Origin: Edaphochlamys debaryana
Taxonomy: Eukaryota; Chlorophyta; Chlorophyceae; Chlamydomonadales
Reading direction: 5' to 3'
Length of the DNA stretch: 64,000 nt
Assembly (NCBI GenBank): GCA_016858145.1
Contig: JAEHOE010000038.1
Coordinates: 434,001 to 498,000, forward strand
This document shows positions 3,701 through 61,400 of this stretch, one piece after another. Below the pieces are notes generated by a model. That model saw nothing but the letters and a program-made list of their open reading frames with translations, searched no databases and was not told the DNA's origin. Each line of letters begins with the position of its first letter. Positions within the stretch are counted from its first letter, which is position 1. The position numbers and the translations under genes were made by a program.

Positions 3701-6700
3701 CGCGTTTGAGCCGCATGCCCCGGCCCCAAGCTCACAACCTATGCCAACCTGCCCTGCCCCTTTCCATGAGCTGCTCCCCGCGCCCCTCACCAGGGGACCT
3801 TCTGCGCCCGGGCGCTTACGCTGCATGCCCCTCCCCCCGGAACTGAGCACCTTCCTCCAGATGGCCTCCGCCACCCACTCCCCTCCTTGCCCTTGGCTGC
3901 ATGCCCCTTCGCCGTAAGTAGCACCTACTATCCCCTTCACCGCTGTCCCTCACCCGCTGGCCCCCCCCCCTGCCCCCGTGCCCTGCCCTCACCTTGCCCT
4001 TGAGCTGCATGCCCACGAGCCCGCTGAGCGAGTAGTTGCCGATGCGGACGCGGATGTTGGCGGTGTGGAGGTGCCTGCGGAAGGCGGGGGAGTAGGAGGC
4101 TTGTTTGATTGGGAGGGTGGGCAGTGGAGCGGGACAGGCGGAAGTACGCTACGCGCTGGCACATTTGCCGCTTCAAAACCGCCACGCTTCCCCCAACTTC
4201 CGCTAGCCCCCCCTCCCCCTGAGCCGCCCCACGCCCTGCCACCTGTTTAGTGCCAACACGGGAGTCACGGCGTGCTCCGCCACATCCGCCCACGCTACAA
4301 AACACACACGCCCCTCTCCCCCAGCCTCCTCTACCCCCCCTCAGCCCCCCCACCTGTTGAGCGCGAAGAGCAGCGCGACGGCGTGCTCCGCCACGCTCTC
4401 CGGGGAGTAGGTGGGCACGCGGCACACCTGCGTCAGGGGGAGGAAGGTGATAGGTGCTGCGGCGTGGGCCTAGCGTCTAGGGTACGTGGTGCTGCGAGGC
4501 AGGGGCCACGCACTTGGCACGGGGACTGCTCGCTGCTGCGGCGCCCCCTGGGCGCCCATGCCCATGCCCATGAGCGCCAAGGGGGCTGGGGTGCAGGCCG
4601 TGGTCAGGGCCGTGGCATGTTCAGCCCCCGGCATCCAGCGGACCCCAGACGCTCCAGCCTCAGCCTCAGCCCCAACCAACTACACGGGCCCTCCACAGCC
4701 ACAGCGGGTGTGGGTGGTGGGAGGCAGAAGGGCGTAGGCCAAGGCCCCTACCCCGCCTTGCGTGCGCACGACCGAAATGGGTCACGCCCCTCCCTTTCGG
4801 CCCCGCACCCCAGCCCGCCATCCCAGCCCCCCCCCCCCCATTCCAGTCCCCCAGCCCCACCTTGATGCCGTGCTTGGCGCAGGCAGCCACGTCCACCCGG
4901 TCTGGGGGAGGGCGGGTCATGGGGCGACCGGGGTTATGACCGCACGGAATGGCTGGGCCGCTGTTGGGCCGCTGTTGCCACCCCGATCGTGCGCGGCTGT
5001 GAGGGTGCGTCCGCGGGGACTCCGACGCCCGAGGGAGCGGAGCCCCGGCCCACCCGGCGCCAGTTTTCCACCCCACCGCAGCGACCGCCTGGACGGGAGC
5101 ATGAGGGCCGTCCCAGCCACAGCTGCGCCGGCGAACTCCACGCCTCCACCCTCCCCTTGAAGCTCCCCACGCGTGCCTACCGTATCCCGCGCACCGCAGC
5201 GCCACCAGCTTGACCCCACACTTGGCCAGCACCTCGGCCACCTGGGGCCACACACGGGTACGTGCGGGGGGGCATGGGGGGCAGTCGGCAGAGGGGCAGT
5301 CGGCAGACAGGCCTGTGCACGTGCCTCTGCAAAACCCCTCCCTAGGCGCTGCGAGGGGCCCAGGCGGCCGCGCTACACCCCGTGCGCCCCAAACGCAGCA
5401 CGCGTGGCGGCTGAGCCACACGCGGCCAAGCGCCCCCGCCGGCAGTCGCGTAACCCCTGGGACCTGGTCGCAGTGCCGCGCGCCCCGCCGCCCCAGGCCC
5501 CGGCCCTGCCCCCGGCAGCACGTCGGGCGCTGGTACTGCCCTGACGGCTGGGCCCCTGGGTCTCGGCCCCCCCCCCGGCAGCACACATAACGTCCACTTA
5601 GAGTGCCATGACCAGGGGTTTCCTGCTGTGGGCCAGCCACTCTCAGCGGGCCCGGCTGTGCTCGCCTTGGCACTGTTTGGCACCGTGTCGCGTCGCCCAG
5701 CCCCACCCCCTCGCCATCCCGGCCCCCTCCTCCAGGCGCCCCACCTCCGCGGACAGGAAGTCGTTCACAAAGATGCACTGCGGAACATGGCGTTAGAAGT
5801 GGAGGCAGGAACTGGTTGAGGTTCCTCAGCCACTCATGTCAAGTTGCCGTACGGGTGGAGGCAGAGGGACGCGTGCCCGCCGTGCGATGCAAGGTGGTAG
5901 GCGGTACAGGTGCGTGGCTGGATGTATACCGATATATATATGGTTCACCCCCTGCCCGCAGCCTGCAGCCCGGGGCCCACCACGACGTCGTAGCCCTCCG
6001 CCAGCTTGGCCGTGTCCTTGTCCAGAGCGGGCTGCGGGGGGAAAGGCGGGGTTGAGCGGGGGGGTTGAGGTACGTGCCACACCTCGGTCGGGGGCACACG
6101 TGTGGGACGAGTACGTCTGAAGACGTCCGCAGTCCTGCCAAACCCGCCAACGCTCGGGTCACGTAATGGACGCGAGGCGCAACCGGACGACGCGAATGCG
6201 AGCACAGTCTTGGGCGGGTTCCGGGTTGGCGAAGGCCGTAGTGGCGGGCTCGGCATGCGCGATACTCGCCTCCACGAAGCTCGAGTTGGGGAAGAACGCA
6301 GTCATCGGCGGCACCAGGAAGTCCTTTACGTACTGCCGGGAGCTGTAGGAGATGGTCCTGACCGTCTTCAGCGCCTCCTGCAAGGCCAGGAAGCACATCG
6401 CTGCGTCGGAACCCCCTCGTTCAAGCTTAGCCCGGCCCACAACGTGCAGCGTACTCATCAGACCTAGCAATAGCGACTCGCCTCCTCAGCAACCGTTAGC
6501 TCGAGGAAGAAGTCCGAGACCGATGTAGTGTCCTCCTTGATCACTGTGGGCACGCCCGTTCCAAAGGGCGTGAGCTGAGCCAGTGTCTTGACACATGCGC
6601 GAGAGCGGCGTCCGAGGGTGCGGGGGTGCGCTGGCCGGGGAACCATGGAAGTGCATGCGCGGCGGGCGGGTGTCGCCACGCCCCGGCGGGACAGGCCAGA

Positions 6701-6712
6701 AAGGAGGGCCAT
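773..6712 (-). CDS. D-lactate dehydrogenase (LdhA type), 17 exons
   Basis: NAD-dependent reduction of pyruvate to D-lactate in fermentation. Exons (5'-3'): 6712-6482, 6377-6270, 6031-5981, 5777-5745, 5241-5181, 4901-4861, 4427-4354, 4074-3993, 3471-3415, 2946-2899, 2725-2675, 2526-2462, 2261-2197, 1915-1819, 1477-1432, 1193-1101, 880-773; all phases agree, giving 436 residues. The Rossmann motif VVGTGAIGYEACRIFK lies near residue 235. The expected catalytic Arg is in NVSRGGLIDS (about 316), Glu in DVYENEQDLFF (about 344) and His in VTPHSAFLT (about 383). ALRCAGYDRVDV and PESVAEHAVALLFALNR are typical of LdhA rather than glyoxylate or hydroxypyruvate reductases. About 77 basic, Arg/Ala/Ser-rich residues precede the enzyme and suggest organelle import. 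Introns 1 and 2 appear to start with GC (GAG|GCGAGT); for intron 1 a GT site nine bases upstream is also in phase. The tail is Ala/Pro-rich. Confidence 0.9.
3187..3427. repeat. Duplicated intron flank with AGCCCCT repeats in D-LDH intron 9
   Basis: Near 3187-3215 the heptamer AGCCCCT is repeated about four times and followed by CCCTGGGGGA. The same order (TTCCAAGCCCCTAGCCCC, then CCCTGGGGGAC) recurs at about 3371-3411, immediately beside the 5' splice site of exon 9. This reads as a duplicated copy of the intron edge, displaced by about 183 bp. Confidence 0.55.
4240..4285 (-). repeat. Decayed copy of exon 7 3' edge inside D-LDH intron 7
   Basis: The plus strand at 4240-4285 resembles the exon 7 edge at 4351-4396: the donor complement CACCTGTT followed by CACGGCGTGCTCCGCCAC, against GACGGCGTGCTCCGCCAC in the real exon. 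The offset is 111 bp. The middle of the copy has diverged. Confidence 0.7.
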
Positions 6713-9157: not shown

Positions 9158-12100
9158 ATGCTTCTACACAAGCGACCACCTGCAAATAGCAGGACAGGCT
9201 ACAACACTGGCCAGCGGGTGAACCAATTCGCACGAACTGCTAAGTGCCGAGCGTCAACCACACCCGTCGCCGACTTGCCGCTACCAGAGGGCAGCTTAGG
9301 ACTGCCGGTTGTGGGCGAGACGCTCGAGCTGATCGTCGCAGGTAATCTGCTTGCATGGCAAGGACTGTGGGAGTCTCGCGAGCCACGGGCGCCAGCGGCG
9401 CACTTTGAGTCTTTTACAAAGCACATAGTCCTGCCTCGGCAACAGAGCTGGCCTGTAGCCTCTCCCTACGCGGAGGTCCATACCCTTCCTTCCCCGCCCG
9501 TCCCCCCCGCTCCACCCAGGCGACACCTTCGGCACCACCCGGCGGGAGCGGTACGGCGATGTGTACAAGACGCACATTCTTGGAGCGCCCACCGTCATGG
9601 TGTACGGCGAGGGGCCTGTACGGACGGTGCTGGCGGCGGAGGATAGGCTGGTGGCAAGCGATTGGCCCCAGGTGTGGGGGAGGGTGTGGGGGGCGCGCGG
9701 GCTACTGGTTGTGAGGGACAAGGGGGCCATGAGGGTGGAGTGGGGCAAGGGGATTGTGTTTTTGCGGAAGCCACCAGTTGAGGGCGAAAGGGAGGTGCCC
9801 CCCTTCCTCCCCTATCTATTCGTCCCCCCAACCGCCCCCTCTCCACCCCTTGTCCCCACCCCCGTCTCCTGCCCCCCTTTCCTCCCTTCACAACCCCACC
9901 CCCAGGCCACCTCTTCCCTGGTGGGCCCCCTCCCCCCCTGCCAATGCCCCCCTCCTGACACTGCCCCTCATTCCTCCCTCCCGACCTCAACCCCCCCCCC
10001 ACAACCTCCCCCCAGGCCACCTCGGCCCTGGTGGGCCCCGACTCGCTCAACCTGCTGTCGGGCCCCCGGCACGGGGCCGTCAAGCGGGCCCTGGCGGAGG
10101 CCTTCGGGGAGGCGGGCGTGCGGCGGAGGGTGCCGCGGATAGCGGCGCTGGTGCAGGTGGGTGGGGTGCGGAGGGCACAAAAGCGAAGGAATGATAGCAC
10201 GGGTGGAAGGGGCCGCGGCGAGGTCGGCGGCAAGCGCAAGACGAAAAAGGAAGCACGAATCGGGGCAGAAAGGATGAGCTGCAAAGTTACCTTTCCCCCT
10301 CCCCCCAGGAGTACGTGGGGCGTTGGGCGAGCGGGTCGCAGCCGCTGTCGGGGATCGCCGCATGCCAAGAGCTTTCGCAGGTGGGGGACGCGGAGGGTGG
10401 GAGAGATGTGGGTTTGGGAGGGGTCTTGTCGCCTTGCCAGGGAAGGGCACACACGGCACGACTGCGCGAGCTCTGACCCTGACCTCACAACCTTGCCTCC
10501 AACGGTCTTTCTTACCCCCTCCCCCAGGCCGTGTTTGACTGCGTGGTCCTCTCAGCTGTGCCACCATCTCATTCCCCCATTTCTCCCCCATCCTCCTGCC
10601 CAAACGGTCCTTTCCATCCCCCCTCCCGCCCTCCTCCACTTCAGGCCGTGTTTGACTGTGTTGTCCTGGGGGGCGACGGCAGCCCCTCCCGGGCCGCTGC
10701 GCTGCAGTCCCAAATGGCGGCTCTGGCGGGGGGCTTCCAGACGCCACCCCTGGAGCTGCCCTTCACGGGTAGGGGTGGGGTTGGGGTATGGGGTTTGGTG
10801 GTGGAAGGACGGGGGTTAGGGCAGAGGGGCACTGTGAGGCCGGCAGGGCGAGAGGAGAAGTGCGAGGGGGAGGCTTGACGCTGGAGGGGGCGGTGCCACC
10901 CCTGGAGCTGCCCTGCACGGGTGGGAATGGGGCCTGGGGGGGTGGGGGTGGGGCCTGGGGGGTGGGGCTGGGGGCGGGGCGCCGGGATGGGGGTGGTCTA
11001 GGGGCGGGGAAGGAGAGCTGTGAGTTGGAACGGGGAGGCGAAGAAGGCAAAAGGAAGCACGTCTAGCGCATTGAGCAGCACGCACGCAATGCGCCCCCTC
11101 CCTGCTCACCCCTTGCCCTGCAGCCTACGGCAAGGCAGTCGCCGCCCGCGCTGCCTTCGGCCGCCTGGCCGCCGAGTCCATCCAGCGCAGTCGGGCAGCC
11201 GCCGCCGTGGACTGCTGCATGTCAGACGCCGTGGCGCTCGCGGCGGCGGCGGCGGCGGGTGGCGGCGGCGGCTCCGACGCCGTGTCCCTGCCCGACAGCC
11301 TGCTGGTCGACAATGCGGCGGCGAGCATGTTTGGGAACGCCTCCACCGGTGGGTTGTAGAGGGCGGCCACAGGGCCTGTGCAGGCCGGGCACAGGGGCCA
11401 AGCATTCCATCGGGACTCACACAGCCCCTGCCGGCCTCCAACTCCCGCAGCCAGCCACACACGCACACGCACACTCCCTCCGCACACGCCTCCCCCCTCC
11501 TAGGCTAGCCCTCCTAGGCTAGCCCTCCTAGGCTAGTAGCTAGCCCTTCGTTTGCAGCGTAAGCGGGAGCGGTGAGGTCTCTGCACACCCTTGCCAGACC
11601 CTTGACCTCCCATTCCACCCCATTCGGGAACGCCTCCACCGGTGGGTTGGTACATACACGGGGCGTTCTGGGACAGGGGAAGCAGAGCGAGTGTGCGGGC
11701 GGGCATAGAGGCCTGGAGCAAGGGGCCCGTGTGCTGAACTCTGTCCGTCCCCGCCACCTATACCCCACAGGCCCCTCCCTTGCCAAGGCCCTGCAGTACC
11801 TGTGCGCACGGCCGGATGTGCTGGAGCGGCTGAGGGAGGAGCAGCGGGTGGGTGGCGCCGAGGGGGATGGGTGGCGCGAAGGGCGTGCAGTACCTGGGAG
11901 GTTGGGCGAAGGTAGAGGCGGGTGGGTCCAGGGCGGTTGGATGGAGCCACGGGGTGGCGACAGACGGAGGGGCAGGGGAGGGACTTGCTGATTCGCGCTT
12001 AAGCCTCTGTCGTACGGCACCCCGTACAGGATCTGGTGGCCAAGTACGGCGCTGACGTCATCAGCGGCGATGTGCTGGACGGCATGACGTACGGCAGCGC

Positions 12101-14887: not shown

Positions 14888-15040
14888 GCGCAAGGCGTTG
14901 CGGTGAGGAAGGTTGCCACTCGCTTATTAGAGGGGAGCACGTCCGGTTGACGGGCGAGGGTCAGCAGCCTGGACATGGGCATGGCATAACTGGCGAGAGC
15001 GGTTGGTGGGATTAATGAAGTTGTCCGGAGCATTACTGGG

Positions 15041-15148
15041 GTGCCCTGTGCAGCAGGGGTGCCCTGTGCAGCAGGGGTGCCCTGTGCAGCAGGGGTGCCC
15101 TGTGCAGCAGGGGTGCCCTGTGCAGCAGGGGTGCCCTGTGCAGCAGGG
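15041..15148. repeat. 18-bp tandem repeat, six copies
   Basis: GTGCCCTGTGCAGCAGGG is repeated six times with no visible mismatch, at 15041, 15059, 15077, 15095, 15113 and 15131, inside the likely 3' UTR of BTB copy 1. There are no spacers, so it is not a CRISPR array. Confidence 0.95.
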
Positions 15149-15273
15149 GTGGGTGTAAATGGAATGAGTGTTGGGTTTGGGGCGGGCCCAGGGCTGGGGC
15201 CCATCTAGCTTGGCCAGCCTTGATAGCGCCTCAGGCACGCCCGGTCGGCTGCAACATGCCAAGGTTCTCACAG

Positions 15274-35000: not shown

Positions 35001-38000
35001 GCTCTCCGCCTAGGCCCATCACCCGGGCGAGACGGCCGGTAGCCAGGAGGAGGCTGGAGCTTGAGCAGGCCCGTGCATCACCCACGCCCACCCATCCCAC
35101 CCGCTCACCCCCTGCCCCTTTCGTTCCGATGGGGCACTTTATCGCAGCACGTGCCGCCATGCACACGCATGCACACCGCTCACACGCATGCGCGCACATG
35201 ACCCCCCCCCCCTCCCTGCCCTTTGTGACCTGCGGCTTTTGTTCGGATGGGCTCCTGGTTTGCTCGGCCGGTGCTGGCAAGCCGCCTGCGTACTGCATAC
35301 CGTGCCGTGTGCTCACTGCACATGCATTGGGTATCGCGCATTCATGTCGCGCATCTTGGCATTTGAACACAACCCCAAACCCTGCGCGCAGGCAACGACC
35401 TGTCCCGCAGCTTCCTGTGGGGCCCGGCGTACAGCCACGGGTGGATCAAGACCCATGAGGCCATGTACCAAACCCTCAACCGGGTGAGCCATGGGGGGTT
35501 GGGGAGAGGAGCTAGGGGGAGTCACGGCCGTTCATCTTCCTTTCCTTGGTTTTGGTGAATTATGAGGGGGGTGGGGAGAAGAACCATGAGGCCATGTATC
35601 AGACCCCCAACCGGGTGAGCCATGGGGTAATGGCGTGGGGTTGGGGGTGGAAAGCTAGGGGCACGGGCATGGGACCCTTCACCGGGCGGGTGAGCGGAGG
35701 GGAGATGTTCGGTGGCATAGGGGAGGTTGGGGTGGGGTGGGGTGGGGGCAGGGGGGGAGGGGGTAGAGTAGCCATGGACCAGGGTGTCAACGGGTTGGCT
35801 GGTCCTTTGGATTGTCCCCTCGCCGCCAATTGCTGGCGTCCCAACCTCTCCTCCCTCTGACCGTCTCCCGTCCCGCGCGCTGTTCTTGCTGCTAGCCTTC
35901 CCCCTGCTCGATGCTAGCCTTCTCGCAAATGCGTCCCCTCCTCTCTTCGTGTATCCTGTCCATCCTTCCCCTCCCTCCCTCGATCCCAAGCGCCACAGCC
36001 TAGCCTTCGCCGCTCCGCATGCCGGCACGGCACGCACCCATACACACGCCCTCCCCCCCTGCTTTCCTCCCCCGCCCCCTCAGGTGGCTACCGCCCGGGA
36101 GGACCGCCTCGACTGCTGGCACATCACCGTGACCACCCCCCGCAAGGGCATGTTCGTGCACGGCACGCCGCACTCCCTCTCGCCGCCCGCGCCCGCGGCG
36201 GCCGCCAGCGGACCCCTCACGCTCTCGCCCCCCGGCGGCCGCGTCTCGGGCCTGCCCCAATCCTTCCCCGGCGGCCCCGGCGCAGGGCCCTCCGCCCCGG
36301 GCTCGGTCGTGGGCGCGGGTTACGGCCGCGGGCACAGCAGCAGCCTGGCCGGCGGCGACCGTACGGCGCAGGCTGCCGTACATCCTGCCGTACAGGCGGC
36401 GCGCGACACGTCGGCGGCGGGGGAGCGGTCCGTGGCGGCGAGTGTGGTGGCCACCCTGGGGTCTGCCACGCCGCTCCACAACATCGCAACCAGCTCTGTC
36501 GGCTCCGCCGCCACCACCTTCACCACCGCAACCAACATGTCTCTGCACACGGGGGCGGCGCAGGTGCGTGAGTGTGTGTGGGGCCTCCATTCGTCTTCTG
36601 AGGGGCTATGCAGGGCGGGACAGAGGGAACACGTGAGCCAATCATGTTAGACTGATGCACGTCAAATCCCATTGGGGCCCGTCCGGCTCATGCACACACG
36701 TCCCCCCTCTCCCCCCCCAGGCCGGCACGTCCATACCCACCATCGTGTCGGGGGCTGTGAGCAACTCGGCGGAGGAGGACGGAGGAATAGGGGTGCTCAC
36801 GGTGGGTGTAAGGGCGGACAGAGTGGGTGCACAGGAGGTGTAAGGGAAGGGGTTTGCAAGGAGGGTTGATGGGTGGAGTTGAGGCGGCTGACGGGGCGGG
36901 TAATGAAGCTTACAGACATCATCAACTGTTTCATCCGCTCGCCGCCCTCATTCCCGTCAGGGCATGTTCTGGAACTACTTCAGTGTGGGCCTGGACGCCA
37001 AGGCCGCCTGGTCCTTCCACTCCCTGCGCGAGGAGCGGCCCGCGCTCACCTCCTCGCGCCTGGCCAACCAGTTCTGGTACTCGCTCTTCTCGTGCACATC
37101 GGGTGGGGGCTGGGGCTGAGGGGCTGGGTCAGGGATGCGGGATGGGCTGTTTGGGATGAGGAGTGGAGGGGGTGGGGTCATGACATAAGGGGTCGCTCTC
37201 CCTCACTTCCTCCACCTCCTCTTCCCCCCGACTCCTCCCATCTCCAAGGCTGGTTCTGCTGTGCCCAGCCGCTCTTATCTGCTGCACTGTCGTGTCTTGC
37301 TCATCTCCCGCCATCCTTCCTCTTACAGAAACCCTCCGCTGCTTTTCCCCTTTCCTTTGCCCCAAAGGCTGGTTCTGCTGCGCCCAGCCGCTCTCATCTG
37401 CTGCCCCACTCCCTTACCTGTTGAACCCCCCTTCCCCCCGCTCCCCCTCCCCCCCCAAAGGCTGGTTCTGCTGCGCCCAGCCGCTCAACGTCAAGGCCAC
37501 CCTCGAGGTGCTGCGGCCGGGGCCGGCGGGGGAGAGCGCCGGGTGGCAGCCCGTCAAGCTGCCGTACAACGTCAAGGCGCTCGTGGTGCTCAACCTGCAG
37601 GTACGGCAGTACGGCATTACAACAGCAGTACGGCAGGAATATAGCAATACGGGGTGGCCAGGTTCCCTGACCCCGAATCCTCGACCCCCACCCCACCCCT
37701 CCTCCACAGTCCTACGCGGGCGGCCGCAACCTGTGGGGCCCCCGCACCACCGCCGCGGCGGAGAAGAAGCACGGCTTCAAGAAGCCCTCCTACCATGACG
37801 GGCTGCTCGAGGTGGGGGGGGGAGCGGCGCGTGTGTATGCGTGCCTGTGTGGGAGTGTGGCACGTCGGGGCATGCACGACAGCCTGCTCGGGGTGCAGGC
37901 GGGCTGTCGGGATCCCATTGGTGGGTGGTGTGTTTGGTGCCAGTACTGGCATGGCGTGGTGGCAGCGTGCGACTGCATTGCGACGTGCCTTGCGAACGCA

Positions 38001-40986
38001 GGAGGCACGTGGTGTAGGTGGCCGTGTGTTGTTGGCAAAGGGCGGAGTGGCCCGCGGCAAGTGCCATGGTCAAAGAGGCACAGCACGCACCCATACACAC
38101 GCCCCCTCCCCCCCTGTTTCCCCCCCGCCCCCAGGTGGTGGGCCTGTGCAGCGGCTGGCACACCAGTGTGGTCATGGCCTCCAAGGGGTCGCTGGTGCAC
38201 GCGCGGCGGGTGTGCCAGGCGGCGGGGGTGCGCATCGCCGTGCACGTGAGCGGGCGGGGCGGAGGGGTAACGGGGCGTGTGTGTATGGTCGCGTGTCATG
38301 TCGTGCCGTGGGCTTTTGTGAGGGGAAAGGCGGCGGGGATGCGCATCGCCGTGCACGTGAGCGGGCGGGGCGGAGGGGTAACGGGGCGTGTGTGTATGGT
38401 CGCGTGTCATGTCGTGCCGTGGGCTTTTGTGAGGGGAAAGGCGGCGGGGGTGCGCATCGCCGTGCACGTGAGCGGGCGGGGCGGAGGGGTAACGGGGCGT
38501 GTGTGTATGGTCGCGTGTCATGTCGTGCCGTGGGCTTTTGTGAGGGGAAAGGCGGCGGGGGTGCGCATCGCCGTGCACGTGAGCGGGCGGGGCGGAGGGG
38601 TAACGGGGCGTGTGTGTATGGTCGCGTGTCATGTCGTGCCGTGGGCTTTTGTGAGGGGAAAGGCGGCGGGGATGCGCATCGCCGTGCACGTGAGCGGGCG
38701 GGGCGGAGGGGTAACGGGGCGTGTGTGTATGGTCGCGTGTCATGTCATGCCGTGGGCTTTTGTGAGGGGAAAGGCGGCGGGGATGCGCATCGCCGTGCAC
38801 GTGAGCGGGCGGGGCGGAGGGGTAACGGGGCGTGTGTGTATGGTCGCGTGTCATGTCGTGCCGTGGGCTTTTGTGAGGGGAAAGGCGGCGGGGGTGCGCA
38901 TCGCCGTGCACGTGAGCGGGCGGGGCGGAGGGGTAACGGGGCGTGTGTGTATGGTCGCGTGTTGTGTCATGCCGTGGGCTGTTGTGAGGGGAAAGGCGGC
39001 GGGGGTGCGCATCGCCGTGCACGTGAGCGGGGTTTGTGGGGGATGGAGACGGATGGGCGGGGCGGAGAGGTAAGTGGGCGTGTGATAGTGGGTGTCGTGT
39101 CAGGTAAAGGCGACGGGGATGCGCACAGCAGTGCACGGGAGCAGGCCTGGGTTAAGGGCTTCGCAAGGCGAGCGTAGATGCACGTGCGCTTTGCTTATAA
39201 GGGCCCGCCCTGGGTGCTCGGCGGCCCATGCCCCCGCCACCCTCCTTCCCCCTGGCATCCTCCCCCTCCCCCCGAACCCCCGCCACCTGCCCCCCCAGGC
39301 CCCCTATGAGCGCAACGACGGGGAGCCCAGCCACTGCTACATGCAGGTGGGGGGTGGGGGAGCATGGGGGCGTGGGGGTGGCAGAATTGGGGCTGTTGGG
39401 AAGGGCGGGGTGGGTTGGCATGGATGCCGGACGCTCGCGGGCACACCCAGAAGCTTGCGGCGTATCCCTTGGAGGTGTGGCATGGGATGTGTGACAGAGT
39501 TTAGGGGGTGGGAGTGGGGGCGGCGACAGCGGCTAGGGCTCGCGCACATCGGCAGGGTTTGATGCCTGAGGTAGAGGTGCCCAGGGCTCGGGGGGCTCCT
39601 AGGTGGACGGACTGGCACTATTGGCCGCAATGGCCGACACGGCACGCACCCATACACATACACGCCCTTCCCCACCCTCTTTCCCCCCCCCCCACCGCCC
39701 CCCCCCCATCCAGGTGGACGGCGAGCCCTGGAAGCAGGACATCCCCATCAAGGGCCGGGAGGCGCCCGTGCGGGTGGGACGGGGGGGATGGCAGGGAAGG
39801 GAAGGGTACCGAGCCAGGAGACCAGGAGGCTCATTCCGATCAACATTCCGATCTTCGTAGGAGAGGCCGAGGTCGACTGCGTGTAGAATCCCGAATCCCC
39901 GTTTCCCCCACCTCCCCAGATCGAGATCGTGCACGCCGGCGTCAGCCGGGTGCTGCGGAACGAGGACGGCGGCCGTTCCGTGTCCGATGTCTCTCGCGTC
40001 AAGCTCTCCACAGCCGGGGGCGCAGGGGCGGGGGCGGGCGCCGCCGGGGCCTCCACCACCCTCAATCCCATCGTCTCGGCCGTGCCCGAGCCGGGCCCGC
40101 CCTCGGTCCACTTCTCCGCCTCGCTCCCGCTCTCGCCCTCCCAGTCCTCCGTCCAAATGGGCGCTCTGCAGCAGCACTCCCACGCGCCCGCGCCCTCGCC
40201 CAGCAACGCCTCCGGAAGCCTCCCGGGCGCACTCTCCGGGCCGGGCGGGATCGGGGCTCCTGCGGTTATTACGGCTGGGGGTGCAATCGCATCCGGGGGC
40301 GGGGGTGGGGGGGCGGCCGGACACGGGGGCGGGGGGGTGGGGGCAGGCGGGGGGGTGGCGGTGGCGCCGCAGGGGACGAGCGCGTGGTCGAGGCTGGGCA
40401 GCGGCGGGCGGCCTTCGGCGGCGTCGGTCGCGGGAAGCTCAAGCGTCGCGGGGGAGCCGGCGGGGGGCGGCGGGGACGCGGGAAGCACCACGCGGACCGG
40501 CCCGGTGGCCGGGAGCAAGCAGGGTGCGTGGGGCCGGGGGGCCGGGGCAGGGTGGGTTCGGGGCTTGGGGGTGGGCGCTCGTGCCTCGGCTGTCTCCAAG
40601 GGCAAGGGCCGAAGCGGCATTTGGGGAGAGAAGGATCGCTGCCGGCCGGCCCCTTGTTTGCGGGGAATGGAGAGTCTTCTTGCCCATACCGCTTACCTCC
40701 TCCGTGCCTCAAACCAACCCCATCCCTGCCCCCCAAACCCCCATTCCCCACCCCCAGGCGACGGCGCCTCCATCGACGCCGCCTCCCCCACCCCCCTCCT
40801 GCTCCCGCCTTGCCCACCGAAACACACACGCGCCCTCATTCAACCCTCCCCAACCCCCCTTCCCCCCCAACCCCAACTCCCTCAGGCGACGGCGCCTCCA
40901 TCGACGCCGCCTCCCCCACCCCCCGCACGCTGTCCGAGAACCTGGGGTCGGGGGCGCAGAGCATCTCAGCGGAGGGGGCCGTGTGA
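32037..40986 (+). CDS. Diacylglycerol kinase, plant type
   Basis: Phosphorylates diacylglycerol to phosphatidic acid in lipid signalling. Sixteen exons: 32037-32078, 32379-32452, 32896-33046, 34302-34415, 34824-34938, 35392-35483, 36084-36563, 36721-36801, 36961-37102, 37461-37600, 37710-37811, 38135-38245, 39299-39346, 39714-39773, 39920-40523, 40886-40986; all phases agree, giving 818 residues. The catalytic domain starts at [12 protein letters not shown] (about 65); the nucleotide loop is [12 protein letters not shown] (GGDGT about 135-139), then [13 protein letters not shown]. The accessory domain has [54 protein letters not shown] and [10 protein letters not shown]. There are no C1 domains, as in short plant forms. 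A 160-residue Ala/Gly/Ser/Pro exon splits the kinase region, and about 200 low-complexity residues end the protein. Introns 3, 4, 6, 9, 12 and 15 contain copies of exon edges. Confidence 0.9.
33261..33299 (+). repeat. Copy of DGK exon 3 end inside intron 3
   Basis: 39 bases matching exon 3 positions 33008-33046 (CTGCTGAGCCAGGCCAT core) with a few mismatches, displaced by 253 bp. The donor GT has changed to AT here. Confidence 0.88.
34174..34218 (+). repeat. Copy of DGK exon 4 start inside intron 3
   Basis: 45 bases matching exon 4 positions 34302-34346 with two mismatches (GGCGAGAAGGACCACCGACC core), 128 bp upstream. It has its own pyrimidine tract and CACAG acceptor. Using it would shift the frame, because 128 is not a multiple of three. 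Confidence 0.93.
34496..34528 (+). repeat. Copy of DGK exon 4 end inside intron 4
   Basis: CCCGTGATGCGCCAG|GTGGG repeats the exon 4 end (34389-34415) with three mismatches in 27, 107 bp downstream. The GT donor is retained. Confidence 0.88.
35584..35620 (+). repeat. Copy of DGK exon 6 end inside intron 6
   Basis: CCATGAGGCCATGTAT..CAACCGG|GTGAGC repeats exon 6 positions 35453-35483 and the donor with three mismatches in 31, 131 bp downstream. The donor is intact. Confidence 0.92.
37249..37396 (+). repeat. Two copies of DGK exon 10 start inside intron 9
   Basis: GCTGGTTCTGCTG.GCCCAG starts at 37249 and 37368 as well as at the true exon start 37461 (offsets 119 and 94 bp). Both copies follow an AAG acceptor-like trinucleotide and share the downstream ATCTGCTGC, which the real exon lacks. 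They are therefore more related to each other than to the exon. Confidence 0.93.
37813..38122. repeat. Imperfect terminal inverted repeat of DGK intron 11
   Basis: Just inside the donor (37813-37853) is a G-run, AGCGGC, GCGTGTGTATG and CGTGCCTGTG. Just inside the acceptor (38078-38122) the reverse complement reads G-run, AGGGGGC, GTGTGTATGG, GTGCGTGCTGTG. The arms pair over roughly 35-40 nt with small gaps and could bring the splice sites together. Confidence 0.7.
38216..39036 (+). repeat. 111-bp tandem array of a 5' splice site, eight copies
   Basis: The end of DGK exon 12 plus donor (CGCATCGCCGTGCAC|GTGAG) recurs exactly every 111 bp, starting at 38231, 38342, 38453, 38564, 38675, 38786, 38897 and 39008. 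A ninth decayed copy lies near 39118. Units differ at only a few bases. 111 is 37 codons and the exon frame has no stop through the array, so any of the eight donors would give an in-frame protein with 0-7 extra 37-residue modules. Confidence 0.95.
40758..40795 (+). repeat. Copy of DGK exon 16 start inside intron 15
   Basis: CCCCAG followed by GCGACGGCGCCTCCATCGAC and CCCCCACCCC repeats the first 38 bases of exon 16 (40886) essentially exactly, 128 bp upstream. The acceptor is intact. Confidence 0.93.
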
Positions 40987-47894: not shown

Positions 47895-47999
47895 GCTACC
47901 ACAGTTCTGCTGATAGATAGAGACGCCTTTCCCGCCGTCGACAGCACCAAAGACGACGGCGCTTGGGCATCTCAACTCTGCCATTTCCGTGGTCCCATG

Positions 48000-50900
48000 T
48001 TACCAAAGCTTCTGCTGCTGTGACGCCTGCGAGAGCGCCCGCATGCGAGCCTCCGCCGCCGCCGCCATCATCTCCCGCCGCCGGGCCATCTCCTCGGGAG
48101 TGGGTGGCGCCGCCGCCGCCGCCGCCGCTGCTGCACCCCTGCCGCCGCCGCCCCGGCCGCCGGCCCCGGCCCTGCCAGCAGCTCCGCCCCGGCCGCCGCC
48201 AGCCCTGCCGCCGCCCGCCGCCGGGCCGCCGCCGCCACCCACCTTTCCGGCCCCCGCACCGCTGCCGCCGCCGCCGCCTCTCCCCGGAGCCTTGGCGGCC
48301 GCCGCATTGAGCCTGTGGGGAGGTGGAAAGTGGACTCGTAAAGGGTGGATGCATGGAGGCATCCGCTATACGGCGGTACGAGCGCAGCCCCTCCTTTCCC
48401 AAGCTTCCGGCCCCGGGCCCCGAGCCCCGACGAGTCCTCACCTGGCCGCAATGGCCGCCGCCTCCGCCGCCGCCTGAGCGATCTCATCCTCCACCGCCTG
48501 CCGCCGCGCCGCCGCCGCCTCGGCCTCCGCCGCCTTGCGCTGCTCCTCCCCGCCGCCGCCGCCCTCCGCCGCCTTCGCCTTGCGCTCGGCGTCCTTGGCT
48601 TTGAGCTTGGCCTTGTGGGCCGCCTGGGTGAAGGAATGGAGGGGGCAGCGGGGCATTTGTGCTGAGACTGGTGATTGTAAAAGGGGGATGGGAACAAGCA
48701 GTATGCAAGAGGAGTGAGGAGAGTCGACCACCTGTCTGAAGGAATGGAGGGTGAGCAGTATGAAATGGTGACGGGAAGCGGGGAAGATCCGTAGTCAGAT
48801 ATCATAGGGGGATGAAGAGGGGGGCTCTGAGCTTGGCCTTGGGTGCGGGGGTGGAGGGGTGGTGGAGGAATGCTTGCCACCAGCCTTGCCCGCACGGTGT
48901 GGGGTCCGAGCACAACCCCGCGTACTTCACAGTCGCACGCCACCTGATGAAGCTCCCCTTCACTATAACAGGTGAACTCCTGGTGCGTGGATGAAGGTCC
49001 CCTTACTGCCCCCCCTCCCCACCAAATCGCACCTTCCTGGCCTGCTGCTTCTGGCTTCCCTCATTGCCCGCCGTGCCCCCAAAACACGCACACGTTCTGA
49101 CACCCCCCTGCCCTCCCCTGCCCTGCCTCCCACGCCCCCCCGCACCTTCTTGGCCTGCTGTGCCGCCTCCATCTCCTCTGTCAGCGCCGAGGGAATGCCC
49201 GAGGCGCCGTAGTCCCACCTGCGGGGGCGGTTGACAGCAGCGTTGGGGAGGGGGGGTTTGAGGTGCCTGCCCCCTTCCCCGTCCCCCTTTTCCGCCCTGG
49301 CCCCCCTGCTGCATATGCACAGATCTCCCAAACAAGTCAGGACGGGCGCTGGCAGCAGCGCCCCCCACCCCATCCCCGGCACACCTGTCCGGGTTCTGCG
49401 CCATGAAGCGACGGAACGCGTCGCGCGTGTTCTTGTCGGCGGCCAGGGCGTAGGGGGGCCGGCCCTTGGCGTCCAAGGCGCAGGGGTCCTGCCCCCCCTC
49501 GAGCAGCCGCCGCACTCGATCGGGGTCCCCGGCCTTTGCGGCGCGGTGGAGGGGGCCCTCGGCGCCGGCGGGGGCGGCGGGCTCGGCGGAGGTGGAGGGG
49601 TCGGGTTCGGTGGTGGAGGGGGCGGTGGGCTGGGAGGTGGAGGGCGCGGAGGCGGAGGAGGCGGAGTCGAGCTGCGTGGCGGCGAGGGCCTCGGCTGCTG
49701 CTGCCATTTCGTCCTGGGGAGGGGGAGGGCAGGGGAGGGGGAGGGCAGGGGAGGGAGCGGGCGGGGAGGGCGGGAGGGAGGAGCTGGGCACTTGTAGCGG
49801 GTTTGCGTGGAGGTGGAGGTGGAGCAAGCCACCACTGCCAGGACAGTCCTCAAATTCCGCCCGTCCCCTCTCCCACCTCCCCCCTCTCCCCACGTAACTC
49901 CCCCCCAAAACCCAGATCCAGATCCAGATCCCACCTCCAGGTGCGCTGACTGCTGCTGCTGCAGGAGCTCCTCGGCTGCCTCGGGGCGGAACACCGTGGT
50001 CAGCAGCCGCAGCACGCGCTTGGTCTCCTGGCGGTTAGTGGTTGGTGGTGAGGGCGGTTAATGGTTAGGGCAGTTGGGGGTCCTCTCGCCCAGCCCACAA
50101 CTCAGGCTCCCGCCTGTGGCCGACCAGCCAGGATCCCTAGGCGAGCATTAACTTGGCACGCAAACTCTAGGCGGCCCACAACCGGGGGATTCGGGCAAAG
50201 ACTAGCAATCAGCAGAGCTCCTCCTGACAGGTGACAGGCAGCATCTGGTACAGGTGCGAGTGTTTGATGCACAACGGGAGCTCTGGTTGGGGCAATGGGA
50301 GGTTTGGGGCGGTTTGAAGCTGGGGCAGTTGATGATGAGAACCGTTAACTCCCTGGATACTGAATCCTGCCTCTTGGGGGTGGATCCTGAATCCAGGATC
50401 TGCGCTGGATCCTGATCTCACCTGGAACGTGGGGCGGTGCGTGATGAAGGGCACTCGGCGCAGGCGCGGGTTGGACTGCACCAGGGTGGTCTGGCCCTCG
50501 CTGTACAGGCTGCGGGGGGGGGGAAGGAGGCGGCGGGGTGGTAGGGGGGGGGATGCGATGAGGAAGGGACGCTGGCACAAGGACTTGGCCCCCGCGTAGT
50601 ACGGTGCCACGGGGCCATGACTCTGCACAGCGCAGCGTTTCTCCACCCCACAACCTCCCCAACCAGCACCTATGCACCGCGCACCTGCGCGCGTTGGAGG
50701 CGGGTGCGTGCGCAAAGATGAGGTCCGCCCCCCCGATGTGGCCCGCCCAGGAGGCGAGCAGCTCCTGCACGTCTCGCTCCAGGGCTTGCTGCGGTGGGTG
50801 TGCATGGGGGGGGGGGCCAACCGGGAGGATCGGGGTCAATGGTGACCTAAGCAATACACACATCTACCCTCTAAGTGCCCCTGAACAGTCAGCACAATCC

Positions 50901-53185
50901 GTCCATCTCCTCCTGGCCCTGCCACCCTGCCGTGTGTCCACGTGCACCAACCCGACCACGCCTCCGCCCCACGAGCCCCCAAGCCCCGAGGTCCTCCCCG
51001 CCCACTCCCCGCCCTCCCCCACCCGCTCCCCACCTCGTTGTACCGACGCAGGCGGGAGCCCGCGGACCTGGCGAACTTGCCGGTGGCGTCCTTGGAGGAC
51101 TGCTTGCCGCCCGCCTTGGCGCTGGGTGTGTGGACAGGGGGTGGGGGAGGGAGTGAGAGGGAAAGGTCTGAGATGTGGGCTCGTGACGGGACATCACGGA
51201 CCAAAGCCCCCTTTGCCCGGCCCTCTTACCTCAACCTCCACCCGACTCACCGCACCGACCGCACCACACAGCGGTGGAGGATCGTGTGCTCCCGCCTTCC
51301 CCGCCCCCCTCCCCCTCGTCCCCTTCCCCCCTCCCCCTCTTCCTCATCCCACCTACGGTAACCCCCCCCCCAAAACTCACCGCACCACGTATCGGTGGAA
51401 AGTCTTGTGCGCCACCACCTCGAAGCCCTCGAGCGCGTCGGGGTCGGCGTGCTTGGAGCTGGAGGGGGCCTTGGCGTCACGGGCCTGAGGGGGGGAAGGG
51501 GGGGGAGGGAGGAGAGTGGGGGGAGGGGGAGGGGTTTGGCGAGGTGTGGAGGGAGGAGGGCAGCAGGTTACGCCGAGGAGGGAAGGGGCCTGGCAGGTGG
51601 GGCAAGTGGTGCCGTGAAGAGAGGTGGGTGGTGGATGGAGGACGGAGGGTGGCCGCCTCAGGTTTCGGAAGTCGTCCAGGGGCTGCAACGGCGTGGGAGC
51701 ACGCGTCGGCGAAACACACACGCTACCCCACCTCCCTCTCTCCCCTCCATGCTTCTCACCTTGAACACCGTGGCCGCGAAGTGCCCCCCCCGCAGCAGCA
51801 CCACCACCCACACGCCCGCGGCCGCCCGCAGCCGCCGCAGCTCCGCCAGCAGCTCGGGCTGCGTGGAGGGCTGGCCCACGGCCTGGGAGGGAGAGGGGTG
51901 GGGAAAGAGGGGTGATGCGGGAGAGACAGGCGAGACACAGGTCTGTGCCTGTACACAACCACCAAGTCTGCTTGCCCTCTCAGCCCTGTCCCCCCTCCTA
52001 CAGACCTCCGACTTGGCCCTGCCTTGCTGTCAGCGGGCCGGTACCCCCCCCCCCCCGGCCCCCCACCTCGACGTGGTCCTGCCTTGCTTTCCGAGGCCCT
52101 GTACGACACATCTTGCCGACAAAACACACACGCTTCTCCCTACCTCTCCCCCCGGCGCCCCCTCTACTCCCCACCTTGACGTGGTCCTGCCTCAGCAGGC
52201 ATCGCCACACGGAGAAGGGAGAGCCGTCTGCGCGGGCGGGGTGGGGTGCGGGAATGGGGCAGGGACCAGCGAGGCGAGGAGGGGATGGGGTAGAGCAGGG
52301 GGCTCCATGCTTGGTCAGCCTCCTCCTTCCCTCTGCCACACTCCCTAGTCTCCCTCCCACTACTGTGGCCCTGCGCTTCCTGCGGCCCTCCGCCCTCCGC
52401 CCTCCTTCCCGTCAGTCCCCCACGTGCTCCCAGCCCAGCCCATAGCAATCCTCCTTAGCTTGAAGTCCTCGAATCACCAACAGCCCCACCCCCGCCCCTT
52501 CGCTGCCCTTCAGCCGACGTCTCAGTCCCTCAGCCGCACCTGCTCAGGCGGCGATGCTCCCCAGTCCCCCCTGCTCCCCCTGCCTGGTCCCATCGGTGCT
52601 ACACATGCTCCCCATGCGGTACCGCCCACCGCCCACGTGCTCAGCTCCGATCCCCCAACCGCCCCGCAGCCGTACCTGACGCCGTGAAGGTCTCCCGAGG
52701 GATTGTGAGCGCCTGTGGCCGGGTCACACACAGTCAAAGGACGACCCTGCTGTTTTAGGTGAGAACCGGGATTGTCCCGTTCGGGTGGGCTTCGGTCTCG
52801 CGGGCTGCTCGGTCCGCATGTCTGCTCTGCTTCGCTGTGCCCCTCTGCGCCGCCGGCGGGCCGCACCAGCTCTAGTCTACCTCACTATTACCAGCTACAA
52901 ACTACGGCTCCGACGCGGCTCCAGCGGCGACACACACGTAACGGGTTCGGGATGGGCGGGATGGGTCGGGCTTCGGTTTCCTCGGGCTTTCGGTTCCGTC
53001 TCTAAGGCCGGCCGGTTAATCACCGCGCCCACGATTCTCAGGCTCATGCGAGCAGCCCTTCACAGAGTCAAAGGAGCGCCCCCGGGCACCAAGCCGTAGT
53101 CCACAGCAGAGCCACACCAGGGGCTGCCCCTGCCCTCCCTCAGGTGCCCCTTTGCGCTTCCCAAGACGTCCTGCATGCCCACGTG

Positions 53186-53218
<33 letters not shown>

Positions 53219-58482: not shown

Positions 58483-61400
58483 TCAGGCGTAGTTCGTGTA
58501 GTACGTCTGCAGGAGACGGTACGGCAAAGACGACAAGTACGACAGTCAGTTGATGACAGTGAGGCACATCTTTCCGCTAAAGGGGGGGGAGGTCGAAGGG
58601 GACTCGCATGCACGTGCATCCCAAGCATGCATGCAGCAAGGCTCACCGGGCAGCACGCCTCGTTGCTGCCGTACAGCGCCACCCAGACGTTGTTATCGTT
58701 GCTGGCCTGTACGGCGAGAAGCGTACGACGGGTGGGCGGTCATCTGCAAGGACGTATCGGTATCCTAGGCCCCAATTCACATGTCTCCCTCATGCCCACA
58801 CGCCGCCCGTCTCCTTCCGCGCCGTTTCACCACACCCAAACCCTTGACCGCCAAACGCATCCCTGGCCCCGGCGGAAGTCTCAAGCCCTAGCCCCCGTCC
58901 CCATCCATCGCCATGCTCCATTGGCCCCCCCACACCCGCTCCTCCGCTGCTCCTCACGCCGATCCCCTTTCCTGCACCCCTCAACCCTCACATGCTCCAA
59001 GCGACCACCACGCGTTCCACCCCCACCCCGTTTCCCACCTACCGTCATGGTCCAGAGCCCCGCGCCCTCCGGCCTTCGGAGGCAGATGTGCGCCGCCCCC
59101 TCGAGCACCAGCGCGGGCTGCCAGGCGTCTCCCCCCGTCACGTAGACCACACTGGCCTCGTCGGGGGCCCACTCGACTGTGATGGGGAGCGAGGGAGAGA
59201 GGTTTGGGATGGGGTTGAGTCTTGAGTGGGGTGGGGTAGGAAGGCTCAGCAGGGCAACATGCGGAGGCCTGGCCGCGCTGGCCTCGTCTGGGGGCCACTC
59301 GACCGTACGCAGGAGAGCAGATAGAGGTTTGTAGGTAGGCTCCAGCAGGGTTGAGCGTTTGCGGCATCTTGAGGGCAGGCGGCCCACAAGAAAGCAAGGC
59401 CGGGCTCCCTTTGCAACCCTTTCGTGATCAAACCCACATTCCCGCCGGCGCGCCGCACGGCACGTCACCGCCCACTCACGCGAAAGCGGCTTCCAGGAGA
59501 CCTCGCCGGTCGTCGAGTCCCTCTGCCGCAGGAAGGCGCCCTGCACCCCCCCGGCCGCTTCCCCGGCGATCCAGGAGGCGAGCCACAGCGCCATTTTGTT
59601 GACGGCGTTGAAGCGGCTGCCGCAGGGGGCCTGAGGGAGGGGGGGGGTGAGGGGGATGCGGGATTGGTGCCGTGAAGTGACGGGTAAGGAGACTAGGACC
59701 ATTGCACAAGAAGGGAAAGGACACCGTGCAAAGGTTGGCTGGAAGTGACTGGAAAGGAAGGAAGGGCAGGTGGCAGCTCAGTCCCACCTGGGGGTCCAGC
59801 GCCTGAGCCCTGCTGACCACCACGCAGTCGAGGAATGCCGTGCCGTTGCCCAGATCTGTCGTACTGACGACGTCGAGGTACGGGTACACAGTGTACGGCA
59901 TGATCCCGGGCGTGGTGTTGCATCTGTACGGCAAGGTCAGGAGAGAAGGGAGGCGGACATGAGCAGTGACGCGCGCCCACTGGCACATGGGTTGGAAACC
60001 TAGTGCGACCGTGGGATGAGAAGGGTACGGCGAAGATGGCCAAGCTCAAGGTCACCTCTGATACTGTGCTCCTCACTCCCCCCCACCCCCCCCCACACAC
60101 ACGGCCCCACCCCGCCCCAACCACGCAGCAACCCTCCTGCCCACTCACTGCGTCAGAGGGAAGGGGCTGAAGTCTAGCACGGGCAGCTGCGGCGCCGAGC
60201 AGCTCCGCAGGTCGCGCCGCTCCAGGGGCAGACACGCCGCGTCGCGCGGTGCGTCCGCGAGGGCCGAGGTGACGGTGGAGAGGGACATGCGCGCGCCAAA
60301 GAGCGCGATGGGGCACTGCGGAGAGAAGAGTGGGGTGGGATGGGTCGGGACGGTTGGGACGGTTGGGACGGGCGATGGGGCACTGCGGAGTGAAGAGTGG
60401 GGTGGGATGGGGCAGGGTGGGGCGGGGCGAGGTGGCACAACTAACGGTGCGTGCCCACGCTCTGGTGCGGTGATGGGGTTGCGGAGCTGGGCAGGTGACC
60501 ACGCCCACCCACCCAAGGCCCCATAAACATGAAAGAAAGAACACCAACCGTGCACAAACCACCCACTGCCATCTTACGTTCATGACCGCCCTCGGCACGA
60601 ATGGGTCCTCCGCCTCGAATAGCGCGTTGTAGTCGCCCCAGCTCTCGGCCTGCAGCGCCCCCTCCAGGTCCGCCCCCCGCAGGTCGCTGAGGAGCGTGCC
60701 GCAAAGGGTCAGGGAGGTGCGGGTGCAGACGGGGGAGGCGAAGCCGCTGGCCTGTGGGGTGGGGGAAAGCGGGGGAGACGAGTGGAGGGGTCGCGGAAGG
60801 AAATGGCGGGGCCGGGAGGGACGAAGGTCTGGGCCCAGCTGTAGGATGCGATATTCGAAAAGGAACCGCCGAGCCGAGGCATCGCGGAGCTGTAGGAATG
60901 GTAGGTCATGGGCCCCACGTGAGGTCGTGTGCCCCGCACCCCCGCAACCCCTTAGGCCCGCTGCTTGGGCTCCAGTCCACTTCCACAGGCGAGGACGGGG
61001 TTCTCGACTCTGAACCCCTGCAAGCGTGCATCCCACCCCACCGCACCCCATCCTATCCCAGCCCCCACTCCCACGCACCAGGCCCGCCTCCCGCACTTGG
61101 TCAAAGCTCTGAGCCGCCATGAACGCCCCGGCCTCGCAGCAGCTGGCGAACTTGAGGCCCTGCCGCTCGGCCCGCTCGATCCAAAGATTCGGCAGGCCGC
61201 AGCTCGTATTACCAAGGAAGTCCCATGTCGTACTGGCTGCCGTACCGTCGGGCCCCGTGACCTCCCAGCGGAAGCACGTGGAGCAAGGGTCGCTGGCGGG
61301 CGGCGATGGCGGTTGGTCGGTCAGCACGGGCGGCGGTTGGAGGTTGGGACCGGGGCTGCCGTACACAGGGCTTGAGGGTGAAGGTGAGGGGTACCTTGGG

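Follow-up and report, generated by a model that had tools for sequence, protein, structure and literature searches.

Introns of the green alga Edaphochlamys debaryana seem to lengthen by steps of about 115 bases through a tiny repeated sequence landing beside splice sites

The introns of this green alga seem to lengthen by steps of about 115 bases, through a tiny repeated sequence that lands beside splice sites. We consider it probable (roughly 60%) that the copies of exon edges found inside its introns make up half of a long target-site duplication around a very short dispersed element, and that later rounds of the same event, or unequal exchange, led to arrays. To our knowledge, the lengthening of introns is less understood than their gain. 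Here the insert appears to copy the splice site along with it, and the footprint should be datable event by event within one genome; since the splice site is copied, the exon and its frame would survive while a constant length is added to the intron.

The window, i.e. the whole stretch of DNA analysed, comprises 64,000 nt of E. debaryana (GCA_016858145.1, contig JAEHOE010000038.1, positions 434,001-498,000 of the forward strand). It was scanned throughout for ungapped local repeats at offsets of 40-1000, and four block-shuffled windows served as control. The scan returned 41 rows, against 0, 0, 0 and 0 in the shuffled windows; setting aside 11 rows that belong to minisatellites and 9 that are harmonics of a 111-bp array left 21 repeats. 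The initial annotation, made from the letters alone, had claimed that introns carry copies of neighbouring exon edges, and these 21 repeats, versus none in the four shuffles, show that the copies are real. Every offset that it had listed was recovered: 111 in D-LDH; 110, 117, 152 and 293 in P450; 108 in VMS1; 126 in the wall glycoprotein gene; and 253, 128, 107, 131, 119, 93 (given there as 94), the 111-bp array and 128 in DGK (diacylglycerol kinase). The DGK name comes from Pfam; the other four are putative names from the first reading of the sequence. One DGK event (40755, +128) was removed from the scan by the complexity filter and was detected separately, and the scan added three edges absent from the annotation, at 32445 (+89), 49028 (+113) and 60305 (+67).

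Offsets of 83-134 were found for 15 of the 21 repeats, the remaining six having offsets of 67, 152, 192, 212, 253 and 293; the 'near-constant' offset of 94-131 described previously thus fits most events and fails for the rest. By our reading, 19 of the 21 repeats span a splice site, the exceptions being at 3177 (+192) and 42852 (+134). Splice sites of DGK were taken from a joined 15-exon reading frame and those of other genes were placed by eye at GT/AG. In a further 207.9 kb fetched from elsewhere, mostly loci picked for the motif described below, offsets also peaked at 100-129 (11, 25 and 16 per 10-bp bin). In 30 kb from arbitrary places (L084-L086), two of four repeats resemble exon-edge copies (offsets 120 and 155). 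The comparison with shuffled introns had been set beforehand as a test that could refute the idea, but offsets proved unlike the shuffles in the window and peaked in the fetched loci.

Between the two copies there is often a filler that is common to unrelated genes, roughly CCGACGCGT-N-CAAAACACACACGC-TTTCCCCC, in which the core CAAAACACACACGC often follows an ACGCGT-type block and precedes TTTCCCCC. A 14-base filler core occurs exactly 307 times in the whole genome versus 5 for a reversed control, and 1,405 versus 104 times with at most one mismatch; longer forms of the motif, arrays included, gave 10 versus 0, 36 versus 0 and 58 versus 0. These genome-wide counts refer to recurrence of the sequence, its intronic position having been read at the fetched sites. 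The window holds six motif matches (0.06 expected), five of them between exon-edge copies, and an nhmmer profile of the filler gave five window matches at E<0.02, all near known core-motif sites. Rfam returned 0 matches in the four sources searched.

The motif does not accompany all events: of 17 exon-edge events in the window, 10 reach less than 12/14, too little for a clear match. In a hand-compiled, post hoc comparison, motif-like filler was present in 8 of 10 high-score duplications versus 6 of 31 weaker ones (Fisher p=0.001), or in 7 of the 10 with a stricter cut (p=0.005). The two high-score duplications without it are L043 and L053; together with the duplications that carry neither of two motif patterns (59, of which 26 still show an offset of 100-135), they indicate that some events do not require the motif. 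Simple repeats can act as filler, GATCCGGGATCC in L084 and CCGTCCCAA at 60305. One control was set aside because it was spoiled by arrays near motif loci. When five fillers were folded, three surpassed shuffled sequences by a clear margin (z -2.3 to -3.2) and two did not (z -0.37, 0.80), and a filler hairpin is therefore not relied on.

In DGK the pattern is documented by a reading frame: its 15 exons were joined into one open frame, which is intact across all decoys (as the intronic copies are called here), and every duplicated edge of the gene extends over an exon boundary (8 of 8, versus 1.07 expected). All copies in this gene are on the plus strand. The first of the exons found has its functional donor edge at 32445-32475 and a decoy at 32534-32564 (+89; motif 9/14), and the exon 2 donor (33007-33046) recurs at 33260-33299 (+253), with a partial copy at 33111-33131 (+83). 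Exon 3 is duplicated at both ends. Its acceptor decoy (34171-34218) precedes the functional copy (34299-34346, +128) with the core motif in sense at 34244-34255 (plus strand), and its donor (34387-34430) is followed by a decoy at 34494-34537 (+107) with the core motif antisense at 34447-34458 (minus strand). The exon 5 donor (35448-35496) has a decoy without motif (7/14) at 35579-35627 (+131). Two decoys precede the exon 9 acceptor, an outer one at 37246-37285, with one mismatch over 29 bases relative to the functional copy, and an inner one at 37360-37393, whose 34 bases are identical to the functional 37453-37486 (+93; no motif, 6/14). At exon 11 the donor edge (functional donor at 38246) leads into 7.3 copies of a 111-bp unit (38217-39031), the filler of which contains CCATACACACACGC in reverse (12/14). 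The acceptor of the last exon (40883-40924) has its decoy at 40755-40796 (+128) and the core motif, with one mismatch, at 40819-40830 (plus strand). Filler and decoy sit within longer introns that have a separate other end, for example 33047-34301.

In D-LDH (minus strand) the functional exon 3' end and donor at 4351-4394 is matched by a decoy at 4240-4283 (+111), and the core motif AAAACACACACG lies on the donor side at 4299-4310 (plus strand), antisense to the gene. The P450 gene (plus strand) has four decoys: two of acceptors, at 9899-9929 (functional 10009-10039, +110; no motif in the filler, 8/14) and 10525-10550 (functional 10642-10667, +117; no motif, 7/14), and two of donors, at 10895-10932 (functional 10743-10780, +152; top motif score 10/14) and 11626-11649 (functional 11333-11356, +293; top score 11/14 over 269 bases). 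For VMS1 (minus strand), donor decoys lie at 52061-52084 (functional 52169-52192, +108), with the core motif on the donor side at 52121-52132 (plus strand, antisense), and at 49028-49047 (functional 49141-49160, +113; variant motif, 12/14). By eye, a decayed third copy is present near 52001-52030. A one-mismatch core motif at 51711-51722 (plus strand) sits beside another VMS1 donor (~51759), where no decoy was detected. Acceptor decoys on the minus strand complete the set, in the wall glycoprotein gene at 59278-59303 (functional 59152-59177, +126; motif 9/14) and at 60372-60411 (functional 60305-60344, +67; CCGTCCCAA-like simple repeat as filler).

The anatomy of the duplications was measured at 18 chosen motif sites, L017, L035 and L067 being omitted. 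In this set the median length is 71 bp for the duplication (range 34-95) and 36.5 bp for the filler (20-63), and the median offset is 113 (93-128); simple motif offsets (n=28) have a mean of 115.2 (sd 8.3). The three omitted sites have apparent fillers of 71-80, and a filler of 'about 37' may thus be a low estimate. Flanking repeats exceed the 99% level of mismatched-locus controls at 33 of 69 exact-motif sites, some of which share an array; the other 36 show none that is significant. At 57 of the 69, the motif is followed by a pyrimidine tract (by a simple rule, 31 of these are donor-type and 23 acceptor-type, with 3 uncalled); at 12 such a tract is lacking. L017, L059 and L061 appear reversed. 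The filler usually has the same direction relative to the exon, i.e. sense at acceptors and antisense at donors. A duplication is seen around the filler; the right end of the filler is C-rich and blends into the tract of the target, which makes its right edge uncertain.

Under the target-site-duplication reading, an element of ~25-50 bp with the core CAAAACACACACGC would insert next to a splice site and duplicate ~60-85 bp of target, a stretch that reaches from the end of the intron across the splice site into 20-60 nt or so of exon. Of the two copies, the one nearer the exon would retain the working splice site and the reading frame, while the other, now intronic, would be a neutral decoy, presumably skipped in splicing and decaying. 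The offset would then be the sum of duplication (~71) and filler (~37), and later events at one edge, or unequal exchange between copies, would add whole units and yield arrays. We infer insertion rather than a product of deletion or conversion.

As to chemistry, non-LTR retroelements and SINEs insert by target-primed reverse transcription, with variable long target duplications and with one constant and one variable end. The events described here resemble them in having a long duplication of variable length, and may resemble them in having one constant end and a variable other end; unlike such elements, no convincing longer version accompanied by a distant exon-edge copy was found at 34 loci searched up to 1.5 kb (best distant matches: L042, score 17, G-rich; L046, score 13), besides the lack of Rfam matches. 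Taken on its own, target-primed copying of a short RNA is the chemistry that we prefer, tentatively and at less than even odds. The C-rich 3' end of this RNA would pair, at an intron end, with the strand that carries the G-run, and the second strand would be cleaved ~70 bp away, inside the exon; this would give the exon-facing orientation at donors and acceptors alike and would allow variable left (5') ends. Under RNA-primed insertion one would expect a small RNA that ends in ...AAAACACACACGCUUUCCCCC, or the complementary one. Targeting by C-runs alone was weakened as an explanation: C/G runs are present outside genes too (0-8 per kb in five stretches taken as intergenic, versus 12-14 per kb in genes), yet motif sites are mostly at exon edges, so that priming at C-runs would be insufficient by itself. 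More tentative still is the full picture, in which a splice-junction-targeted mobile sequence of ~35 bases, RNA-copied at exon-flanking C/G runs, would duplicate a whole splice site per insertion, adding ~115-bp intron quanta with the protein untouched, and its repeats would seed intronic minisatellites with tandem near-identical acceptors or donors.

A rather unlikely, though not far-fetched, source of the same structure is the repair of staggered breaks, with paired nicks ~70 bp apart near exon edges being filled in and joined, often with capture of a common short DNA fragment. The parts of PMC8355091 available to us report that fill-in of complementary overhangs yields small tandem duplications in other organisms, and the simple-repeat fillers (L084 and 60305) and the two motif-free events among the ten high-score ones agree with such repair. 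Captured filler should, however, be varied and in either orientation, whereas here one core is frequent and the pyrimidine tract lies exonward in 57 of 69 sites. The initial annotation proposed, as a simple reading, tandem duplication of a unit about one small intron long. Growth by such units, including the exon edge and splice site and leaving decoys, is upheld, as is whole-unit duplication as a secondary process, seen in the arrays; as a first step, plain duplication of a ~115-bp unit, with the motif as an ordinary part of intron ends, appears improbable. It adds no foreign sequence, yet many copy pairs enclose a shared filler; the duplicated part is ~71 bp, not 115, with a shared filler of ~37 bp (18 chosen sites); five of the six window motifs lie between the copies; and in 15 of 18 loci checked, no motif scores above 10/14 in the sequence scanned to the left of the left copy. 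In favour of plain duplication are the arrays, related CATACACACGC blocks at intron ends elsewhere in DGK and the three loci (L009, L057 and L075) where a good motif does lie on that side. By eye, a related CATACACACGC block is also present just beyond the scanned sequence in L045, and a weak one inside it in L080.

Retention of filler or decoy for a function, whether by enhancing splicing, offering a decoy splice site or forming a regulated alternative exon, strikes us as more doubtful again. Decoys can retain intact splice signals, and in the DGK pair with the 253-bp offset the four differences are all synonymous by our reading of the frame; other decoys (D-LDH, DGK exon 5), also by our reading, have altered amino acids, weaker copies less often have a motif-like filler beside them, and a filler that is sense at acceptors and antisense at donors is hard to regard as an RNA signal. 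False local duplication during assembly is very unlikely indeed, since an artefact would not be expected to yield a single filler that recurs at hundreds of loci, mostly in one orientation, and the copies show graded divergence.

Full-text searches of an open-licence library gave, among the top papers listed, no description of exon-edge duplications around such a short filler. Related systems include introners, which, in the accessible portions of PMC9860276 and PMC3443670, are short dispersed genic repeats that add spliced-out sequence, some taking splice sites from the target duplication. The filler is likewise a similar short sequence dispersed in genes and adds spliced-out sequence, but introners make new introns, whereas the filler is shorter than an intron and lengthens existing ones (DGK). 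The target duplications named in those portions are 3-9 bp, against a median of 71 (34-95) at our 18 chosen sites. For terminal inverted repeats of the introner type, one arrangement was searched, a palindromic full element in which the motif comes within 30 bases after its own reverse complement, and it occurs 0 times in the genome. None of the terms chlamydomonas, volvox, chlorophyt and debaryana appears in the main text of PMC9860276, nor does 'introner' appear in PMC8226300. In intron gain by tandem genomic duplication, as outlined in the sections at hand of PMC3443670 (the topic also of PMC4974935), a new intron takes its two ends from a repeated exonic AGGT. Both there and here, exon sequence that has been duplicated together with splice-like signals comes to lie in an intron; in DGK, however, the intron already exists and AGGT does not supply the two sites of a new one. 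The copies, adjacent in that process, are separated here by a filler (median 36.5 bp at the 18 chosen motif sites). The single-event tandem copies of tens of bases in PMC8355091 are comparable, but the available parts describe neither a recurrent filler nor a link to splice sites; here a frequent shared filler occurs besides varied and motif-free ones. Direct repeats near intron borders are similarly read as insertion footprints in the portions seen of PMC11782384, being 4-30 bp (mean 11.4) at both intron borders; ours are longer and flank a filler inside the intron.

According to the part of Craig 2021 (PMC8226300) available, introns of core-Reinhardtinia lack the usual length peak at 60-110 bp, a feature on which the arrays may also bear. 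Whole-unit tandem arrays were found at 38217-39031 (111 bp), C2:2766285-2768160, L049 and L087, and those at L087 and C2:2766285-2768160 offer natural tests of the choice between nearly identical competing acceptors. The clearest, L087, was met while paralogues were being sought as empty sites, for which L088-L090 resembled, by eye, unrelated low-complexity matches. It has six 125-bp units that carry 63 nt of exon, and the opposite end of the exon shows a second event.

Repeated exon edges were sought in the window (67.3% GC) by two scans. Exact 14-base seeds at offsets (start-to-start distances between copies) of 30-600 gave 56 complexity-filtered rows. A more sensitive ungapped scan (offsets 40-1000) gave 41 rows, and none when applied to four shuffled windows. 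The claim of the initial annotation that introns contain near-copies of adjacent exon edges was therefore borne out. Of the 41 rows, 11 were set aside as minisatellites and 9 as harmonics of a 111-bp array, which leaves 21: 15 have offsets of 83-134 and one each is at 67, 152, 192, 212, 253 and 293. The duplication spans a splice site in 19 of these 21 rows (judged from a gene model for the diacylglycerol kinase gene, DGK, and by eye for the other genes). In the DGK model, 15 exons join into one open frame, with AG before each exon, GT after all except the last and a stop codon at the end of the last; Pfam domains DAGK_cat and part of DAGK_acc were found on the first eight exons. All 8 functional DGK copies (those at the working exon edge, as distinct from intronic decoys) lie across an exon boundary, for which random placement averaged 1.07 with a maximum of 5 (20,000 trials). 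For comparison, the published description of the Edaphochlamys debaryana genome gives 142.14 Mb in 527 contigs, 67.1% GC, a median intron of 198 bp and 9.31 introns per gene (PMC8226300).

Comparison of the segments between copies (fillers) revealed that unrelated genes share AAAACACACACG. With at most one mismatch this motif has six matches in the window (0.06 expected); five lie between two exon-edge copies, and the sixth (51711) adjoins a donor where no decoy is detectable. In the genome as searched (141.9 Mb, 502 contigs), CAAAACACACACGC was found 307 times exactly versus 5 for the reversed pattern, and 1,405 versus 104 times with at most one mismatch. Extended forms were far above control (CGACGCGTCGGCAAAACACACACG, 10 versus 0; CGTGTCAAAACACACACG, 36 versus 0, 6 of the 36 in one array; AAACACACACGCTTTCCCCC, 58 versus 0, 17 of the 58 in one array), which confirms a longer unit.

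Most of the loci elsewhere in the genome (L numbers) were taken from this search, at about 80 of 100 places among the matches listed, and 69 motif sites, several belonging to the same array, entered gapped alignment. The flanking repeat exceeded the 99% level of a control, built from left-right pairs drawn from different loci, in 33 of the 69. Among sites without a significant flanking repeat, short matches of 10-12 bases at 115-124 bp, perhaps decayed remnants, occur in L055, L062, L052 and L078. At L010, next to L009 with its clear copy, a stretch looks related by eye. Simple motif offsets below 200 averaged 115.2 (sd 8.3, n = 28). At 18 chosen sites the medians were 71 for the duplicated segment (34-95), 36.5 for the filler (20-63) and 113 for the offset (93-128); outside this set, the apparent filler measures 71-80 at L017, L035 and L067. 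On its left the filler ends differently at different sites; its right end is C/T-rich and grades into the polypyrimidine tract.

When the motif is oriented as CAAAACACACACGC, most sites have a pyrimidine tract to its right and, beyond that, the functional exon edge. The 30 bases after the motif are at least 75% pyrimidine at 57 of the 69 sites, which a simple rule divided into 31 donor-type, 23 acceptor-type and 3 uncalled. Since the motif usually points toward the exon at both edge types, in gene sense it appears as itself at acceptors and as its reverse complement at donors; the prevailing arrangement is a mirror about the exon. The remaining 12 sites depart from this direction pattern. L017, L059 and L061 appear to be inverted; L044, L056, L068 and L073 resemble, by eye, matches that do not belong to it. 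At the rate of the reversed pattern (5 versus 307), roughly one of the 69 sites would be expected to match by chance, so four is more than chance alone accounts for.

The initial annotation had proposed tandem duplication as the origin of the copies; its outline is largely right, but the unit reads better as a tiny dispersed insert flanked by a long target-site duplication than as a bare tandem duplication. Tandem duplication of a local unit that includes the motif should leave a motif to the left of the left exon-edge copy. At 15 of 18 loci, a scan from 230 to 60 bases left of the motif (background in the window mostly 7-9 of 14) found nothing better than 10 of 14; L009, L057 and L075 reached 12-13 of 14 and look like second rounds. 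Against insertion, L045 has a CATACACACGC block just beyond the scanned stretch and L080 a weak one within it (score 9). These two blocks, together with the longer fillers beyond the chosen 18, lowered our confidence in the insertion reading from 0.62 to 0.60. The main rival is break repair with a captured filler. Introners work in a somewhat similar way, but by the tests made here the unit is not one of them.

The shared filler, the long duplication across the splice site, the prevailing direction and the arrays are seen in the sequence itself; the mechanism behind them may be primed insertion. On either flank of an exon (G-runs at donors, C-runs at acceptors), the adjoining G-run strand would offer a pairing site for the C-rich end of the element. 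Copying leftward, with another cut some 70 bp off, would produce the order of parts that is seen, and direction and location would be explained together. C/G runs number 0-8 per kb in five stretches taken as intergenic versus 12-14 in genes. However, runs outside genes appear to be seldom hit, so a further source of specificity would be needed, possibly transcription or nucleosomes positioned on exons.

Arrays follow the scheme edge-(filler-edge)n. L087 comprises six 125-bp units that include 63 nt of exon, and the opposite end of this exon bears an independent donor event; the six near-identical tandem acceptors of L087 (126-900) offer a natural test of acceptor choice. On contig C2, an array at 2766285-2768160 (L018-L034) holds 17 motif copies spaced 114-120, and L012 (C2:2625276-2625405), about 140 kb away beside similar exon sequence, holds 2, so unit number may change fast. 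Divergence is greater in the outer copy than in the inner one at DGK exon 9 and in the first VMS1 example. Such a gradient is expected if new units arise next to the exon, although the cases are few.

The window has 17 exon-edge events, and in 7 of them (4267, 34171, 34387, 38217, 40755, 49028 and 52061) the filler has at least 12 of the 14 motif bases. The other 10 fall below this level: four in the P450 gene, DGK 89, 253, 131 and 119/93, the wall glycoprotein gene and 60305. Among duplications with neither of two motif patterns, 26 of 59 lie in one 36-bp offset band, the same as for motif events (binomial P = 1e-21 under a null of uniform offsets from 40 to 1000). In a hand-compiled, post hoc comparison excluding loci rows with the exact motif, motif-like fillers occurred in 8 of 10 high-score duplications (closer copy matches) versus 6 of 31 low-score ones (P = 0.001); a stricter cut left 7 of the 10 (P = 0.005). 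Age is one reading of the motif-poor fillers. Yet two cases look young and have no motif filler, the copies in L043 (48/48 identical) and the inner decoy of DGK exon 9 (34/34), so either several fillers exist or duplication is possible without one.

Further repeats were observed. A GGCACGCACCCATACACACGCCC-like block stands shortly upstream of the acceptor in three DGK introns (window 36040, 38090 and 39650) and may represent older copies or a second, related element. Short CGACCCACATGG-like donor-edge copies in the D-LDH gene (window 1699-1820; spacing about 45-70) appear by eye to be a shorter form of the exon-edge pattern. The window also contains an 18-bp unit, GGGGTGCCCTGTGCAGCA, repeated perfectly in tandem about six times at 15038-15151, and a degenerate, possibly coding, 24-bp G+C-rich minisatellite at 62248-62760. 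Repeats spaced 220-283 at L045:3990-4800, unlinked to the motif, are possibly another element. Simple repeats resembling GGATCC(G)GGATCC were seen several times, in fillers or at the start of introns (L084:481, L053:1200, window 49925 and 50400), and are perhaps a second filler family.
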